From a virus, in the IMG/VR virus record IMGVR_UViG_3300009130_000066, positions 1 through 39,464 of that record: 39,464 nt of DNA; one strand, 5' to 3'. Both the position numbers and the translations under genes were made by a program. The notes under the pieces were generated by a model, which was not told the origin of the DNA, did not search any database, and was given only the letters and a program-made list of their open reading frames with translations. Positions 3,113-8,910 of the stretch are shown here, one piece after another. Position 1 is the stretch's first letter; each line of letters begins with the position of its first letter.

Positions 3113-3445
3113 ATGAGTAGCGGTTTAAATCTTCTGAAGATTATAGAAGAGATGCGAAAGTTTGATACGCAGATTGAAGCACAGGCAATAGCTGTGTTTT
3201 TATTTGTTGCAGTACATGGGAAGAGAGAAGGAATAGCCATGCAAACTATAAGTGAAGAATTAGACTTGGCTCAATCATCTGTGTCTAGGAATTGCTATAA
3301 GTTAGCTGACATAAATAGACATAAAAAGACTGGGATAGGTCTATTAGAGACTTTTGAAGACCCAATGGAAAGACGTAGAAAGTTAGTACGTCTTACAGCA
3401 AAAGGCAGAAGAGTATATTCCACTCTTTTGGAATGGGTTAAATAA
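3113..3445 (+). CDS. MarR-like winged-helix transcriptional regulator (110 aa)
   Basis: The start at ATG 3113 follows a purine-rich AAAGGAAA. Residues about 41-67 (IAMQTISEELDLAQSSVSRN...) form a helix-turn-helix, with AQSSVSRN as the recognition helix. The segment after it ends in RRKLVRLTAKGRRVYSTLL, the typical wing and dimer helix of MarR-type proteins. It probably binds DNA in the host cytoplasm. It sits directly before the integrase gene (19-base gap), so a role in the lysis/lysogeny choice or in int control is likely but inferred. An inverted repeat lies just upstream. Confidence 0.8.
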   Translation: MSSGLNLLKIIEEMRKFDTQIEAQAIAVFLFVAVHGKREGIAMQTISEELDLAQSSVSRNCYKLADINRHKKTGIGLLETFEDPMERRRKLVRLTAKGRRVYSTLLEWVK

Positions 3446-3464
3446 CAATGAAAGGCGGTAAAGT

Positions 3465-4346
3465 ATGCAGACTAAAAATCCAAAACTGCTTACAGAGATA
3501 CACCGCAAACTTACTCTTAAAGGGTGGGAAAAGTTGCAACGTGAACGAGCCGAGAAAATTATTACAATGTTGGGTCGTGGAATGTTAGTAACAGAAGTTA
3601 CAGATAATCATGTAGAGCATGTTGTTGATACTTTGGAAAACAGAGGTTATCAAGGCTCAACGATTAATCGGTATCTGTCCTCACTCTCAAAGATGTTAAG
3701 ATATGCCAATCAGAGACAATCTATTTATCATCTTGATAGAATGCCTCACATTGATTGGAATAGAGAGGACAATGGTAGAGAACGATACCTTGAACTAGAG
3801 GAAGAGAAAGAAATTATTAAATTGTTAACTGAATGGAACATGGTTGACTATTTAGAGTTTTTTTTATTTCTAATAGATACAGGTATGAGACTAGGCGAAG
3901 CGTTATCTATTAAGAAGTTAATGATACACAATAACAATGGAAATTATGTTGTTAACTTACCTGCTTCAATTACGAAGAATGGTGAGCCAAGAGGTGTACC
4001 ACTAACAGAACGTGCAAAGTCTATTGTTGTCAAACTGTTGGACAAAGCGGAAAGAAACGACCTTGTATTTTCACATTTAAAATATTGGACGTGTGAGAAT
4101 ACTTGGAGACGTTTAAGAAAAGCAATGAACCTTGAAGAAGACAAAGAGTTTGTCATTCATTGTTTAAGACATACTTGTGCTACTAGGTTAGCTCAATCTG
4201 GGAAGGTAGAACTTCACATGATTGGACAAATGCTAGGGCATAAGTCATGGAAGATGATAAAAAGATACGCTCACTTAATACCAAATAATTTAGTGGGTGC
4301 AGTAAATGTTCTTAATGGGATTAATAGAAATATACAATCCAATTAA
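3465..4346 (+). CDS. int: Tyrosine recombinase / phage integrase (293 aa)
   Basis: It catalyses site-specific integration of the phage genome. The N-terminal core-binding (SAM-like) domain spans about residues 5-90 and the catalytic domain about 105-285. Catalytic residues visible are R142 (DTGMRLGEAL), K171 (SITKNGEPRG), H232 and R235 (HCLRHTCATRL), H259 (MLGHKSW) and the nucleophile Y268 (KRYAHL), so the enzyme looks intact. The start at ATG 3465 has AAAGGCGG upstream. The gene lies directly beside an attP-like region (half a tRNA-Cys, 4433-4473), as expected for an integrase that uses a tRNA gene. Confidence 0.95.
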   Translation: MQTKNPKLLTEIHRKLTLKGWEKLQRERAEKIITMLGRGMLVTEVTDNHVEHVVDTLENRGYQGSTINRYLSSLSKMLRYANQRQSIYHLDRMPHIDWNREDNGRERYLELEEEKEIIKLLTEWNMVDYLEFFLFLIDTGMRLGEALSIKKLMIHNNNGNYVVNLPASITKNGEPRGVPLTERAKSIVVKLLDKAERNDLVFSHLKYWTCENTWRRLRKAMNLEEDKEFVIHCLRHTCATRLAQSGKVELHMIGQMLGHKSWKMIKRYAHLIPNNLVGAVNVLNGINRNIQSN

Positions 4347-4353
4347 GGATTAA

Positions 4354-4374
4354 ATGTAGTATGAGGATAGTTGA
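4354..4374 (+). repeat. Left arm-like inverted repeat of the attP region
   Basis: ATGTAGTA, five bases, then ATAGTTGA. The same pattern with a four-base centre occurs inverted at 4500-4519, on the other side of the tRNA-like core. Paired arms around a core are typical of integrase arm-binding sites. Confidence 0.5.
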
Positions 4375-4432
4375 TTATTTATGTTTATAAATACAAGTAA
4401 AAGGGACTGTTCCACTGGTACATGGGTACAAT

Positions 4433-4473
4433 AGGATTTGCAATCCTCTGCGTAACCATTCCGCCACGTTGCC
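4433..4473 (-). other. attP: attP core: 5' half of tRNA-Cys(GCA)
   Basis: Read on the minus strand from 4473, the sequence folds like tRNA positions 1 to about 41: acceptor 5' strand GGCAACG, a D-arm with stem GCG/CGC and loop GAATGGTTA, then an anticodon arm whose loop TTGCAAA holds anticodon GCA (4441-4439). The match fails at the last anticodon-stem pair and no T-arm follows, so this is a half tRNA. It sits beside the integrase gene and is therefore best read as the attP identity block for a host tRNA-Cys gene. The exact limits need the host sequence. Confidence 0.8.
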
Positions 4474-4484
4474 ATCTCGTTTAT

Positions 4485-4513
4485 TTTATAAGTAAACACT
4501 CAACTATTCTCTA
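4485..4513 (-). promoter_or_regulatory. Candidate promoter facing the half tRNA
   Basis: On the minus strand TAGAGA (4513-4508) and TATAAA (4490-4485) are separated by 17 bases, and the -10 ends 11 bases before tRNA position 1. This would restart the tRNA after integration, when the host's own upstream sequence is displaced. The -35 is only 4 of 6, so support is moderate. Confidence 0.4.
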
Positions 4514-4519
4514 CTACAT
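4500..4519 (-). repeat. Right arm-like inverted repeat of the attP region
   Basis: Read on the minus strand: ATGTAGTA, four bases, then ATAGTTGA, matching 4354-4374. It overlaps the -35 of the candidate tRNA promoter, so integrase binding could compete with transcription. Confidence 0.5.
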
Positions 4520-4533
4520 CTTTAAAAAATAAT

Positions 4534-4569
4534 CAAAGGACTAAACTTAATTTGTAAGCCATTCCTTTG
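4534..4569 (+). promoter_or_regulatory. Inverted repeat upstream of the RNA polymerase gene
   Basis: CAAAGGA (4534-4540) is repeated inverted as TCCTTTG (4563-4569), 28 bases before the polymerase ATG. It could be an operator or an RNA hairpin; nothing further supports either. Confidence 0.25.
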
Positions 4570-4573
4570 GTGC

Positions 4574-4592
4574 ATCAATCAATAATCAGGAG
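4574..4592 (+). promoter_or_regulatory. Translation leader of the RNA polymerase gene
   Basis: ATCAATCAATAATC followed by AGGAG, five bases before ATG 4598. It is a variant of the early-gene leader and links the polymerase to the early set. Confidence 0.45.
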
Positions 4593-4597
4593 AAAAA

Positions 4598-7057
4598 ATG
4601 AAAATACTAGAAATAATGCCGACATACAAAGACCAACATCTAAACGAGACAATGTCTAAAGAGTTAGGTGCAAAGAGGACAAACAAAAGACGCTTATCAC
4701 ATATTGATAGAGGCGAAGAAAGTGTCACTTCTTATGGTAAAGTAATTGTCGCCAATACAATAAGACCATTAGCAATCCGAATAGCAGAATGGGTAGAACA
4801 GAGTTTATCTAATGTTCATTCTAAAACTCCCATTGCTCTAAAATACATTTCCCAAGTAGACCCAAAGATACTAGCGTTGATAACTGCAAAGCATATAATC
4901 AATACTATTACTAATACCAAGAACTTGACTGCTACTGCAATCACTTGTGGTGGTAGAGTTGAGACAGAGATAAGTTTAAAAAACTTTAAAGCTCTTAATC
5001 CTGAACTATACGAAACTGTAAGAAGAGATTTAGACAAAAGGTCTTGGAACTATAACTATAAAAGAAGAAAGTTAAGAGAGAGTGCTAAACGAGACAGCGT
5101 TATGAAATGGGAACAATGGACTACCACCGAAAGATTACATGTTGGTATGCAACTCATTGATTTACTCATTGAAAGTACAGGACTTGTCCAAGTTGGTACA
5201 GAGCAACATAAACATAAAACTGTAAAAGTTATTAAACAAACTGAAAAGACTAAACAGTGGATTGATAACCGAAATAAGTTTAATGAACTATTAAACCCAG
5301 AGTATCTCCCAATGGTTATGCCACCAAAAATGATTGAAGATGGGAAAATTTCAGGTCATGGATATTGGACTGATGAACTCCCAGAGTTAGACCTAGTTAA
5401 GCAAAAAGGTAAGAAATTTAATAAAGAATTAGAAGCCTTTGCTATGCCTGAAGTAACCAAAGCTATTAACTTAATGCAGGGTACAGCTTATAGAATTAAT
5501 AAGTTTGTATTAGGTGTAATGCAACATGCGTGGGATAAGGGACTATCCATTGGTGGTATGCCACCCATAGAAAACTTACCATTACCTAAAAAACCTCACA
5601 ATATAAGTGAAGACACTGAAGAGGGTAAAGCCGCCCTTAAAAAGTTTAAGAAAGATAGTGTCATTGTTCACACAGAGAATAACAGAATGGTATCAAAGAG
5701 ATTATTGTACGCTAAAATTATATGGTTAGCCCAGAAGTTTGTACAATATTTAACACTATTCTTCCCACTACAATTAGACTTCAGAGGAAGAGCATATTGC
5801 GTTCCTGCTTTTCTTAACTATCAGTCTATTGGTGGTGCTAAAGCACTACTTAATTTTGCTGTTGGAAAAGCTATTACGAAAGCCAATAGAGGTGTCTTTT
5901 GGTTAGCTGTTCATGGCTCTAACATGTGGGGTAATGATAAAGTCTCATTAGAAGATAGAGAAAAATGGGCTTATGATAACCTAGAATGGATTAAAGCATG
6001 TGGTACTGACCCAATAGGTAATAGACAATGGGAAGACGCAGATAGTCCTTTTCAGTTTCTAGCTTTTTGTGATGAATGGACAAGATACCATGAAACAGGT
6101 GATGGTTTTATATCTCATTTACCAGTAAACGTAGATGGCTCTTGTAATGGTCTTCAAATTTATTCTCTTTTATTAAGAGATAAAGTTGCAGGTACATTAG
6201 TTAACTGTATTCCTAGTGATAAACCACAAGACATATATCAATTAGTTGCTGATGAAGTTATTAAAACTTTAAAAGTGAAAGCTGAAGAAGGTGATGACTT
6301 GGCGAAGAAATGGTTAGCTTATGGAGTTAAGCGTTCTACTTGTAAAAGACCTATTATGACAATTTGTTATGGGTCTACTAGATATTCATGCACAGATTTC
6401 GTAGTTGAAGATTTAACTAAACGAAAAGATAAAGGTGAGATGCACCCTTTTGATGACATGTTTAAACCTGCTACTTATTTGTCTAAAATTATTTGGGCTA
6501 GTATAGGTGAAAACTTAAAGTCAGCTAGACAAGGAATGGATTTCTTACAAGGGATAGCAAAAGTTATCGCTAAACAAGGTGTTCCTTTACATTGGACTAC
6601 ACCAGTTGGATTTCCAGTATTTCAATTTTATCCTGAAATGAAAACTAAAAGAGTAAAATCAAATCTAATGGGAGAAGTTATTATGCCTCAAATAAAAGAA
6701 GAAACTGAAGGTACTGACAAACTTCGTACTCGTAATGCGGCGGCGGCTAACTATGTTCATAGTTTAGATAGTGCTTGTATGATTAAGACTGTCAATATTG
6801 CAAAAGAAAAAGGTATTGAAAGTTTTTGTAACGTACATGATAGCTTTGCTACACATGCTTGTGACATTGATAAACTTAACGAAAGTATAAGAGAGGCTTT
6901 TGTTGAAACCTTTAGTCAAGATTTATTTGACAAGTTTAAAAAAGAAACCGCCTTATTAGTGGAAGATAAAGAAGCTGTTAAAAAGTTTCCTGAAATTCCT
7001 GCGTCAGGCGAATTGGAGTTGGGTTTACTACATCAATCCAAGTTTTTCTTTGCCTAA
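4598..7057 (+). CDS. T7-like single-subunit DNA-directed RNA polymerase (819 aa)
   Basis: It transcribes the phage middle and late genes from phage-specific promoters. Polymerase signatures are all present: D394-F-R-G-R (T7 DWRGR region), catalytic D513 in VNVDGSCNGLQIYS (T7 D537), K583 and Y591 in KRPIMTICYGS (T7 K631 and Y639), and catalytic D748 in NVHDSFATH (T7 D812). The N-terminal domain is shorter than in T7 (819 versus 883 residues overall), and the protein ends in the aromatic KFFFA (T7 ends FAFA). The start has AGGAG five bases upstream. Three candidate promoters for it are at 7284, 17526 and 31771. A gp3.5-like protein, in T7 an inhibitor of this enzyme, is encoded downstream. Confidence 0.97.
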   Translation: MKILEIMPTYKDQHLNETMSKELGAKRTNKRRLSHIDRGEESVTSYGKVIVANTIRPLAIRIAEWVEQSLSNVHSKTPIALKYISQVDPKILALITAKHIINTITNTKNLTATAITCGGRVETEISLKNFKALNPELYETVRRDLDKRSWNYNYKRRKLRESAKRDSVMKWEQWTTTERLHVGMQLIDLLIESTGLVQVGTEQHKHKTVKVIKQTEKTKQWIDNRNKFNELLNPEYLPMVMPPKMIEDGKISGHGYWTDELPELDLVKQKGKKFNKELEAFAMPEVTKAINLMQGTAYRINKFVLGVMQHAWDKGLSIGGMPPIENLPLPKKPHNISEDTEEGKAALKKFKKDSVIVHTENNRMVSKRLLYAKIIWLAQKFVQYLTLFFPLQLDFRGRAYCVPAFLNYQSIGGAKALLNFAVGKAITKANRGVFWLAVHGSNMWGNDKVSLEDREKWAYDNLEWIKACGTDPIGNRQWEDADSPFQFLAFCDEWTRYHETGDGFISHLPVNVDGSCNGLQIYSLLLRDKVAGTLVNCIPSDKPQDIYQLVADEVIKTLKVKAEEGDDLAKKWLAYGVKRSTCKRPIMTICYGSTRYSCTDFVVEDLTKRKDKGEMHPFDDMFKPATYLSKIIWASIGENLKSARQGMDFLQGIAKVIAKQGVPLHWTTPVGFPVFQFYPEMKTKRVKSNLMGEVIMPQIKEETEGTDKLRTRNAAAANYVHSLDSACMIKTVNIAKEKGIESFCNVHDSFATHACDIDKLNESIREAFVETFSQDLFDKFKKETALLVEDKEAVKKFPEIPASGELELGLLHQSKFFFA

Positions 7058-7081
7058 ACCTATGCAACAGAGGATAGTTGA

Positions 7082-7288
7082 ATGAAAGAATATGTAATAA
7101 TGACTTTACTACTTCTACCTTTTGAGGAAACTTTCAAGGTAGATAGTAAATTATGGCTTCTTGATGTTAAAGCACCTCATTGTGAGGTTGAATTACCAAC
7201 TACTTACCATGAACCACCTGTAAACAAACATGAGATAACGATAGGTGGTAAGAAAATGCAATATGTAGGGCGTATCTGTCCCAAGTAA
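7082..7288 (+). CDS. Small hypothetical protein (68 aa)
   Basis: ATG 7082 follows AGAGGA (7069-7074). The N-terminus MKEYVIMTLLLLPF is hydrophobic and short, and might be a weak signal or anchor; the rest (KVDSKLWLLDVKAPHCEVELP... ICPK) has two cysteines. No family is recognised. The upstream bases 7060-7078 nearly repeat 13077-13095, and the stop lies within the phage promoter-like site at 7284. Confidence 0.55.
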   Translation: MKEYVIMTLLLLPFEETFKVDSKLWLLDVKAPHCEVELPTTYHEPPVNKHEITIGGKKMQYVGRICPK

Positions 7289-7303
7289 AGTTGCACTATT
7301 AGA
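7284..7303 (+). promoter_or_regulatory. Candidate phage RNA polymerase promoter, site 1 (replication module)
   Basis: AGTAAAGTTGCACTATTAGA. It matches the two sites at 17526 and 31771 at 17 or 16 of 20 bases. CACTATTAG resembles the CACTATAG core of T7 and SP6 promoters. It begins at the stop of the preceding gene and precedes the SSB and replication genes. Confidence 0.65.
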
Positions 7304-7351
7304 CTAATCAACATGGTTGGAGAAAACACAGAGATAAACACAAGGAGAAAC

Positions 7352-7966
7352 ATGAGTAAACAAACATACGAAAAACTGGTTACACCTGTAGGTGTATCGC
7401 AGTTTGCTTGGTTAAATAAACCAGATACTAAATTTGATGATAATGGACATTACAAAGTTAATCTAGTAATTGCTTCTGCTGAAGCAAAGCCACTCATTGA
7501 TAAGATAAATGGTGAAGTAACCAAAGCTGTTGCTATGGCTAAAGAGAAATCTAAAGGCAAGAACATAAAAACAGCTAACAAACCTTTTGAAGAAGAATAT
7601 GTAGAAGGTAAGCCTACTGGAAACATAATCTTCAAATTCAAAGCTAAAGCAAAGATAATAATGAAGAATGGGGACGTTATAGATAATAAAGTTCCAATCT
7701 TTGATAGCAAAGGTACACCAATGACCAATCAAGTTTGGTCAGGTAGTCAAATGAAAGCGTCTGCGGACATGATACCATACTACACAGCTATGGCAGGTGC
7801 AGGAGTTTCATTAAGACTTAAAGCAGTGCAAATAACTAAATTAGTTGAAGGTTCAGGTGCAAATTCATCAGCACATGGATTTTCTGAAGTTAAAGATGGT
7901 TATGTAGCACCTGCGGAAGATAAAACTTACGAAAATGAAGTTCAAGAAACGTCAACTGACTTCTAA
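7352..7966 (+). CDS. ssb: T7 gp2.5-like single-stranded DNA-binding protein (204 aa)
   Basis: It coats single-stranded DNA during phage replication and, in T7, recruits polymerase and helicase. The start is ATG 7352 with AAGGAG five bases upstream; an in-frame ATG at 7313 lacks a site. The sequence YEKLVTPVGVSQFAWLNKPD then DNGHYKVNLVI resembles the start of the gp2.5 OB fold, and GVSLRLKAVQITKLVEG its last strands. The C-terminus is mildly acidic and ends in Phe (STDF); a terminal Phe is a key feature of T7 gp2.5. It overlaps the endonuclease gene by 32 bases. Confidence 0.85.
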   Translation: MSKQTYEKLVTPVGVSQFAWLNKPDTKFDDNGHYKVNLVIASAEAKPLIDKINGEVTKAVAMAKEKSKGKNIKTANKPFEEEYVEGKPTGNIIFKFKAKAKIIMKNGDVIDNKVPIFDSKGTPMTNQVWSGSQMKASADMIPYYTAMAGAGVSLRLKAVQITKLVEGSGANSSAHGFSEVKDGYVAPAEDKTYENEVQETSTDF

Positions 7967-8348
7967 TCAAGTAGGGCTTAAATATGGTTTTAGGTCTGGG
8001 CTAGAAATAGCAATCTCACAAGAGTTAGATGCTAATAGCATAAAGTATAAGTATGAACAGGTTAAGTTAAAGTATACTAAACCTCAAAAGATACATACTT
8101 ATACCCCAGACTTTTACCTAGAAGAACAAGACATTTATTTAGAAACAAAAGGGTTATTCACTTCTGCTGATAGACAGAAGATGAGACTTGTTAAAGAACA
8201 ACACCCAGAGAAAGACATTAGATTAATATTCTCTAATTCAAGAAGTAGGATTTCAAAAAAGTCAGCAACTACTTATGCAATGTGGTGTGACAAATATAAT
8301 TTCAAATATGCTGACAAACATATTCCTTTGGAGTGGTTAAATGAATAA
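7935..8348 (+). CDS. T7 gp3-like endonuclease I, Holliday-junction resolvase (137 aa)
   Basis: It resolves branched DNA and in T7 also helps degrade host DNA. The active-site residues match T7: E24 (FRSGLE), D59 (YTPDF), E70 and K72 (LETKG), aligning with E20, D55, E65 and K67. The following DIRLIFSNSRSRISK and the C-terminal KFKYADKHIPLEWL also match gp3. The start lies inside the ssb gene with no clear ribosome site, so coupling is likely. It overlaps the next gene by eight bases. Confidence 0.92.
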   Translation: MKFKKRQLTSNQVGLKYGFRSGLEIAISQELDANSIKYKYEQVKLKYTKPQKIHTYTPDFYLEEQDIYLETKGLFTSADRQKMRLVKEQHPEKDIRLIFSNSRSRISKKSATTYAMWCDKYNFKYADKHIPLEWLNE

Positions 8349-8775: not shown

Positions 8776-8817
8776 GACGCATCTAGTTAGAAATAGCTAG
8801 GTGCGTTTCGTATTTTT
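8774..8817 (+). terminator. Strong intrinsic terminator
   Basis: A 13-bp stem (8774-8786 with 8797-8809, containing two G·U pairs) closes a 10-base loop and is followed by GTATTTTT. The stem begins inside the stop codon of the gp3.5-like gene. This is the best intrinsic terminator in the window. Confidence 0.8.
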
Positions 8818-8910
8818 GGGGTGGCTTACAATGAAACTGACCCCATAGGGCTAGTAGAGGGAGACTGAACCTAGCCCATAAAATTCCCAAATATTTTACC
8901 CAAAAAATTT
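8818..8910 (+). promoter_or_regulatory. Structured leader upstream of primase-helicase
   Basis: GGGGT (8818-8822) can pair with ACCCC (8840-8844), and GGGCTAG (8848-8854) with CTAGCCC (8871-8877). The bases before ATG 8911 have no Shine-Dalgarno (CCCAAATATTTTACCC). A regulatory RNA role for primase-helicase expression is possible; no known family is recognised. Confidence 0.35.

Follow-up and report, generated by a model that had tools for sequence, protein, structure and literature searches.

A 5' half of tRNA-Cys as the attachment core of an uncultured pelagiphage, and its probable role in sparing the host tRNA

When an integrating phage carries the 5' half of a host tRNA gene as its attachment site, what becomes of the tRNA after integration, and why is so much of the gene kept? 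We addressed these questions in IMG/VR record IMGVR_UViG_3300009130_000066, the whole stretch of which (39,464 bases) is called the window here. The window is an uncultured member of the HTVC019P-type pelagiphages (Pelagivirus): an alignment with HTVC121P covers 92% of the first 25 kb (95.8% identity) and places it in that genus, and the region of its phage attachment site (attP) is 96% identical to that of HTVC021P. The attP core lies within the 251-bp gap between the integrase gene (int) and the RNA polymerase gene, and the order int, attP, RNA polymerase gene is common to the isolates and about 33 viral contigs. We consider, with a probability of roughly 85%, that positions 4433-4473 form the attachment core of a temperate-type pelagiphage, that the part corresponding to nucleotides (nt) 1-26 of tRNA-Cys is kept so that integration spares the tRNA, and that relatives lacking these nucleotides carry a whole tRNA-Cys gene as a substitute.

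The identity of the core is clear. On the minus strand, 4473 to 4433 (GGCAACGTGGCGGAATGGTTACGCAGAGGATTGCAAATCCT) is identical at 41 of 41 positions to nt 1-41 of SAR11 tRNA-Cys, and the host genes matched by the core are full tRNA-Cys(GCA) genes. The core was recovered at an E value of about 1e-19 (for HTVC022P), far beyond chance, and a 34-nt probe matched numerous SAR11 genomes, which usually hold one tRNA-Cys match each. In 121 host matches, the identity extended no more than 4 nt upstream of tRNA nt 1, and it ended at nt 41 in 120 of them and at nt 43 in the other. Beyond the core, the host continues T-T/G-... and the phage A-T-T-G. Because the anticodon stem is formed by nt 26-30 and 38-42 in linear numbering, the last anticodon-stem pair is the first to break. 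A preliminary description of this DNA, made without database searches, had proposed both the 5' half of tRNA-Cys(GCA) on the minus strand and this breakpoint, and both proposals held. It had also named two findings that would speak against it, i.e., a host tRNA-Cys without the 41-base match and an identity reaching the host promoter; neither is the case in SAR11. In the attP of some phages (L231, L263, and HTVC131P), GGCATCG replaces GGCAACG, and 1 of 118 host tRNA-Cys genes is of a rarer type whose acceptor stem, GGCATCG/CGATGCC, fits this form; this suggests host-specific variants of attP.

The orientation of the core determines where a rebuilt tRNA would lie. Its 5' flank (X) faces the RNA polymerase gene and its 3' side (Y) faces int. 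The integrase would recombine within the 15-bp anticodon arm of the host tRNA-Cys gene, where the crossover is presumed to occur. The left junction (attL) would then consist of the host promoter, tRNA nt 1-41, Y, and int, with no tRNA, and the host promoter would be left with a truncated gene reading toward the 3' end of int; a sequence scan found no terminator on the integrase side of attP. The right junction (attR) would join the phage X side and nt 1-41 to the host 3' half and so contain a complete tRNA-Cys. With this core geometry, integration must place the intact tRNA behind phage DNA. We simulated the junctions by joining phage flanks to those of host L119 with a script and called tRNAs with ARAGORN. 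At the simulated attR, tRNA-Cys was called in all 38 long-core phages, including the window, and at the simulated attL, no tRNA was called in any record, in agreement with the earlier proposal that the rebuilt tRNA would sit behind phage sequence. Among the sequences examined, no clean attL or attR junction was seen, one contig (L172, described below) being ambiguous, and viral contigs with a complete tRNA-Cys, considered as attR candidates, gave two matches, neither joined to the phage. The geometry, the conservation, and the co-variation described below are apparent from the sequences; we infer that lysogens would be viable and that the X-side sequence would hold the promoter of the rebuilt tRNA.

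Relatives with a short core indicate which part of the core the integrase uses. These phages, a large part of the group that includes the type phage HTVC019P, have integrases that are 81-96% identical, and they retain the two inverted repeats that flank the core as probable integrase arm sites, a near-fixed spacing, and the 15-bp anticodon arm AGGATTGCAAATCCT, a few of them in the variant form AGGATTGCAAATCCC. Of 61 phages, 60 have the X arm site at 66-68 nt from the core, and all have the Y arm site at 74 nt. Over tRNA nt 1-26, most short-core phages match at only 3-8 of the 26 positions, about the level of chance, and in L206, which is nested among the closest relatives of the window, the 5' half has decayed to 15 of 26. 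Since the arm and the spacing are kept while nt 1-26 are lost, the integrase seems to need the anticodon arm only, and the 26 nt appear to serve the tRNA. Apparently, then, 15 bp of anticodon arm and two inverted arm sites at near-fixed distances are sufficient for the integrase, and integration of a short-core phage would be expected to break the host tRNA. In L225 (after position 3867), 23 of nt 1-26 match, the three changes perhaps marking the beginning of decay, and the contig ends before the tRNA interval. In L237, L238, L261, L269, and L270, an HTVC019P-type int is followed directly by the RNA polymerase gene, and the record contains no GGATTGCAAATCC core, attP having been lost or moved.

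The loss of the 5' half is accompanied by the gain of a tRNA gene. All 14 short-core records that reach the interval between the lysozyme and primase genes (HTVC019P and 13 contigs) have a tRNA-Cys(GCA) gene there, and none of the 24 long-core records reaching it does, the reach of each contig being worked out from its coordinates; these counts are not independent because several of the records are near-identical. On the integrase tree, the supported independent pairs, three in number (four on the best tree), all agreed with the rule linking core length to the tRNA gene. The rule was also used to predict, beforehand, the tRNA genes of HTVC200P and HTVC119P, which belong to another genus. Their gap between int and the RNA polymerase gene holds no more than 11-12 nt of tRNA-Leu(UAA), and both phages proved to encode tRNA-Leu(UAA) adjoining int, as detected by ARAGORN and missed by the Rfam tRNA model. 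HTVC105P, HTVC109P, Bylgja, and S42C7 carry 5' halves of tRNA-Leu or tRNA-Arg and encode no corresponding tRNA gene, and ARAGORN found no complete tRNA in the window. Given this co-variation, the 5' half is best explained by sparing of the tRNA. The phage tRNA-Cys genes (L279-L284 and L286-L293) retain the loop TTGCAAA in 14 of 14 cases, and in all 14 the anticodon stem is altered with pairing mostly kept: the host has GAGGA/TCCTT, and the phages have GTGGA/TCTAC, GAAGA/TCTTT, GTAGA/TCTAT, or GGAGA/TCTTC. The tRNA-Leu stems are likewise recoded (host, AAGGA/TCCTT; phage, CACGA/TCGTG). The recoding takes the stem away from the integrase core and would probably keep the phage-encoded tRNA gene from being used for attachment. 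The annotation of the HTVC019P record lists no tRNA in the stretch holding its tRNA-Cys gene.

However, several points weigh against sparing of the tRNA as the function of the 26 nt. At the simulated attR, tRNA-Cys was also called in 2 of the 22 clearly short-core records (L240 and L241). The independent state changes are few (3-4), so a sign test gave p = 0.25, and significance is not reached with them alone. On the X side, no promoter scored above chance. An integrase search of 397 Pelagibacteraceae genomes revealed no HTVC019P-like prophage, only weak matches of which the best had ≤ 33% identity, and T7-like cyanophages integrate without stable lysogeny (PMC8776855); based on this absence and this precedent, a rebuilt tRNA may be of benefit only rarely or for a short time.

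The tRNA must be transcribed if integrated cells live, which makes an X-side promoter likely by logic, but the sequence analysis did not pick one out. The preliminary description had pointed to the pair TAGAGA-17-TATAAA at the right distance. The pair is present as described, and 11 nt separate the end of the -10 from tRNA nt 1, yet its score was no better than chance. With Escherichia coli matrices, its p value was about 0.5; real host promoters also failed, so this test was uninformative, and a model trained on 78 SAR11 tRNA upstream regions was used in its place. This model gave held-out host promoters a median p of 0.05 (63% below 0.1) and the X sides of the window, HTVC121P, and HTVC022P p values of 0.59, 0.66, and 0.30, respectively. 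A simple consensus scan did not report the pair. Moreover, the -35 lies inside the arm-type repeat, so its conservation needs no promoter explanation, and L206, which no longer rebuilds the tRNA, keeps the same -35 and a similar -10 (TAGAGA-17-TATATT). The named promoter is thus not supported as the one that drives the tRNA, and it is doubtful, if the best surviving alternative, that the X side carries a dedicated host-type promoter of this sequence that takes over tRNA-Cys expression and gives the phage control of an essential tRNA. Several points favor it nonetheless: some X-side promoter is required by the geometry if lysogens live; the TATAAA-like stretch lies within sequence that differs between long-core and short-core phages; the X region of the tRNA-Leu phage HTVC105P, the only suggestive one among the phages, shows TTGAAG-17-TATACA at the corresponding position (p = 0.07); an unrelated element with the same tRNA half has TTGTGA-16-TATATA, as judged by eye; and the leader of an island in L058 scored p = 0.09 with the SAR11 model. 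The phage may "control" an essential host tRNA.

Somewhat less probable, and in our view unlikely, is that integration is a transient or dead-end event, as in T7-like cyanophages, so that the viability of lysogens is not under selection. The missing prophages and the cyanophage precedent just cited would fit this explanation, as would the mainly lytic behavior of HTVC022P in culture (PMC12753301) and the presence of int-bearing relatives without a tRNA-Cys core in the sequence examined. On the other hand, the two alternating states and the cognate tRNA genes of two genera are most simply explained by selection for a tRNA that works after integration, and a related group III prophage that brings its own tRNA-Leu is present in a Fonsibacter genome (PMC6811365). 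The safety of the tRNA appears to cost these phages either 26 nt of attP or a tRNA gene, and a cost of this kind suggests that integrated cells live and reproduce. SAR11 are among the most abundant bacteria, and the question of whether integration of these mostly lytic phages matters becomes testable. From the length of the attP core, some phage tRNA genes can also be predicted and simply accounted for.

A broader combination of these ideas is improbable as a whole: the tRNA would be spared in two interchangeable ways within one phage group, either rebuilt behind phage DNA or replaced by a phage tRNA with a recoded, recombination-proof anticodon stem, and in the rebuilt form the promoter would overlap the arm site, so that excision and the expression of the host's only tRNA-Cys could be coupled through binding of the integrase. 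Even less credible is that the entire 41-bp match is required for recognition by the integrase, with rebuilding of the tRNA as a by-product. Long common cores are usual for tRNA-targeting integrases, but this explanation was already disfavored by the short-core relatives, in which just the anticodon arm and the arm sites persist, with their spacing maintained, and by the gain of a tRNA gene that accompanies loss of the 5' half. Finally, although ARAGORN reports no tRNA in the window, a chance match or a decayed tRNA gene without attachment function can be dismissed in view of the 41/41 identity, the position after int, the conserved arm repeats, and the many relatives. The features on which these arguments draw are listed in Table 1.

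Table 1. Positions of the attachment-site features and neighboring genes in the window.
Feature	Position	Strand	Basis
Long attP core, tRNA-Cys(GCA) nt 1-41	4433..4473	-	Exact SAR11 tRNA-Cys match; shared by 38 related phages or contigs
Minimal core AGGATTGCAAATCCT, anticodon arm, 15 bp; probable crossover region	4433..4447	-	Sole part kept in short-core relatives; common to long-core and short-core tRNA-Cys phages
tRNA nt 1-26; for rebuilding the tRNA, apparently not for recombination	4448..4473	-	Intact long-core phages agree at 25-26/26 positions
Leader between arm site and tRNA nt 1, ATAAAATAAACGAGAT; with 4490 contains the proposed -10 TATAAA (4485-4490)	4474..4489	-	A-rich; loosely conserved in long-core phages, different in short-core phages
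X-side inverted-repeat copy, probable integrase arm-type site; AGAATAGTTG at 4510-4501	4484..4511	-	Repeat; distance kept in relatives
Y-side inverted-repeat copy, probable arm-type site; AGGATAGTTG at 4364-4373	4363..4390	+	Repeat; distance kept in relatives
Proposed -35 TAGAGA, overlapping the integrase arm-type repeat	4508..4513	-	Sequence
Integrase gene (int), tyrosine recombinase, 293 amino acids	3465..4346	+	Pfam Phage_integrase, E = 1e-24; 98% identical to HTVC121P/021P integrases
T7-like RNA polymerase gene, X side of attP	4598..7057	+	Pfam RNA_pol, E = 3e-106
Lysozyme-primase interval, tRNA-Cys site of short-core relatives; without tRNA in the window	8776..8910	.	ARAGORN and comparison with relatives

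The closest known counterparts are HTVC022P and other HTVC019P-type phages at SAR11 tRNA-Cys, which share the phage group, gene order, integrase, attP position, and tRNA target with the window; integration at tRNA-Cys is published for HTVC022P only (PMC12753301, which cites Zhao et al. 2019), and the window is an uncultured member. The preliminary description had regarded a 5' half as atypical. The core does stop short of the tRNA 3' end and is thus not of the canonical 3'-half type, but it is less unusual than supposed: it corresponds to the first tRNA half, as in marine T7-like phages, others of which use 5' halves of tRNA-Leu and tRNA-Arg in our sequence comparison. The attP sites of T7-like cyanophages all match the first half of tRNA-Leu (PMC8776855), and outside these phages such sites have been described as rare (PMC8371274). 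Integration has been demonstrated experimentally for the T7-like cyanophages P-SSP7 and S-TIP37 (PMC8776855), which differ from the window in using tRNA-Leu, in their cyanobacterial hosts, and in their distant integrase (about 29% identity). The HTVC019Pvirus group III phages uv-Fonsiphage-EPL, HTVC011P, and HTVC025P are, like the window, SAR11-type T7-like phages, and the Fonsibacter phage carries its own tRNA-Leu in replacement of the lost one; they differ in using tRNA-Leu(TAG) and in their integrases (PMC6811365). In pTN3-type archaeal integrases, attB (the host site) is a 5' half, as with the window, and the rebuilt tRNA is expressed from element sequence, but these systems are archaeal and their integrase gene is split on integration (PMC8371274). 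The definition of tRNA-dependent lysogeny comes from actinophages, among which some related phages rebuild the tRNA and others do not (PMC10865867). Actinophages such as Fionnbharth resemble the short-core relatives in combining a short core unable to rebuild the tRNA with a tRNA of the same isotype (PMC10865867). HTVC019P and the other short-core relatives have such a core, and the 14 of 14 covered have such a tRNA, whereas the window has a long core and no tRNA gene. Those actinophage relatives that do rebuild the tRNA carry the 3' half, and the window the 5' half. Both the 5'-half attP in T7-like marine phages and the tRNA-Cys integration of HTVC022P are therefore already known; what is less familiar is that the phages switch, in a correlated manner, from rebuilding the tRNA to replacing it or the reverse. 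This linked switch in HTVC019P-type phages and the recoded stems were not found in the literature searched, and Zhao et al. 2019 may cover part of them.

The same tRNA gene is also occupied by unrelated elements, and two cell genomes have the same architecture as that predicted for the window. In L058 (SCGC AAA288-G21, SAR11), an unrelated 1.4-kb island (6468-7979) lies in tRNA-Cys; the host-promoter side retains half of the gene, and the single complete tRNA-Cys follows the island DNA. In L156, a 2.7-kb island (3337-6168) has a chimeric tRNA-Cys on the host-promoter side, in which GGCCACG is paired with CGTTGCC with one acceptor mismatch, and the original tRNA-Cys behind element DNA. A candidate island in L002, based on its distance to tRNA-Asn, was dropped because the intervening DNA resembles ordinary host genes, and the two tRNA copies on two contigs of G035 have identical flanks, indicating redundancy. 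Another element, in L297 (4531-6182), has a RusA-like resolvase, a different integrase-like gene, and tRNA-Cys nt 1-39. In one SAR11 genome (G184; L294, 2534-2619), a relative of this element immediately precedes an intact tRNA-Leu(UAA), and only one copy of the tRNA-Leu 5' half, with no second half copy, was found. In L172 (4700-6553), the X leader of an L297-type element is joined to an HTVC019P-type Y arm and int. This contig was considered as an attL with a host promoter and rejected, because the flank belongs to the L297-type element with the same tRNA half; it may instead reflect a tandem insertion, or a chimera produced in assembly at the 41 bp that the two have in common.
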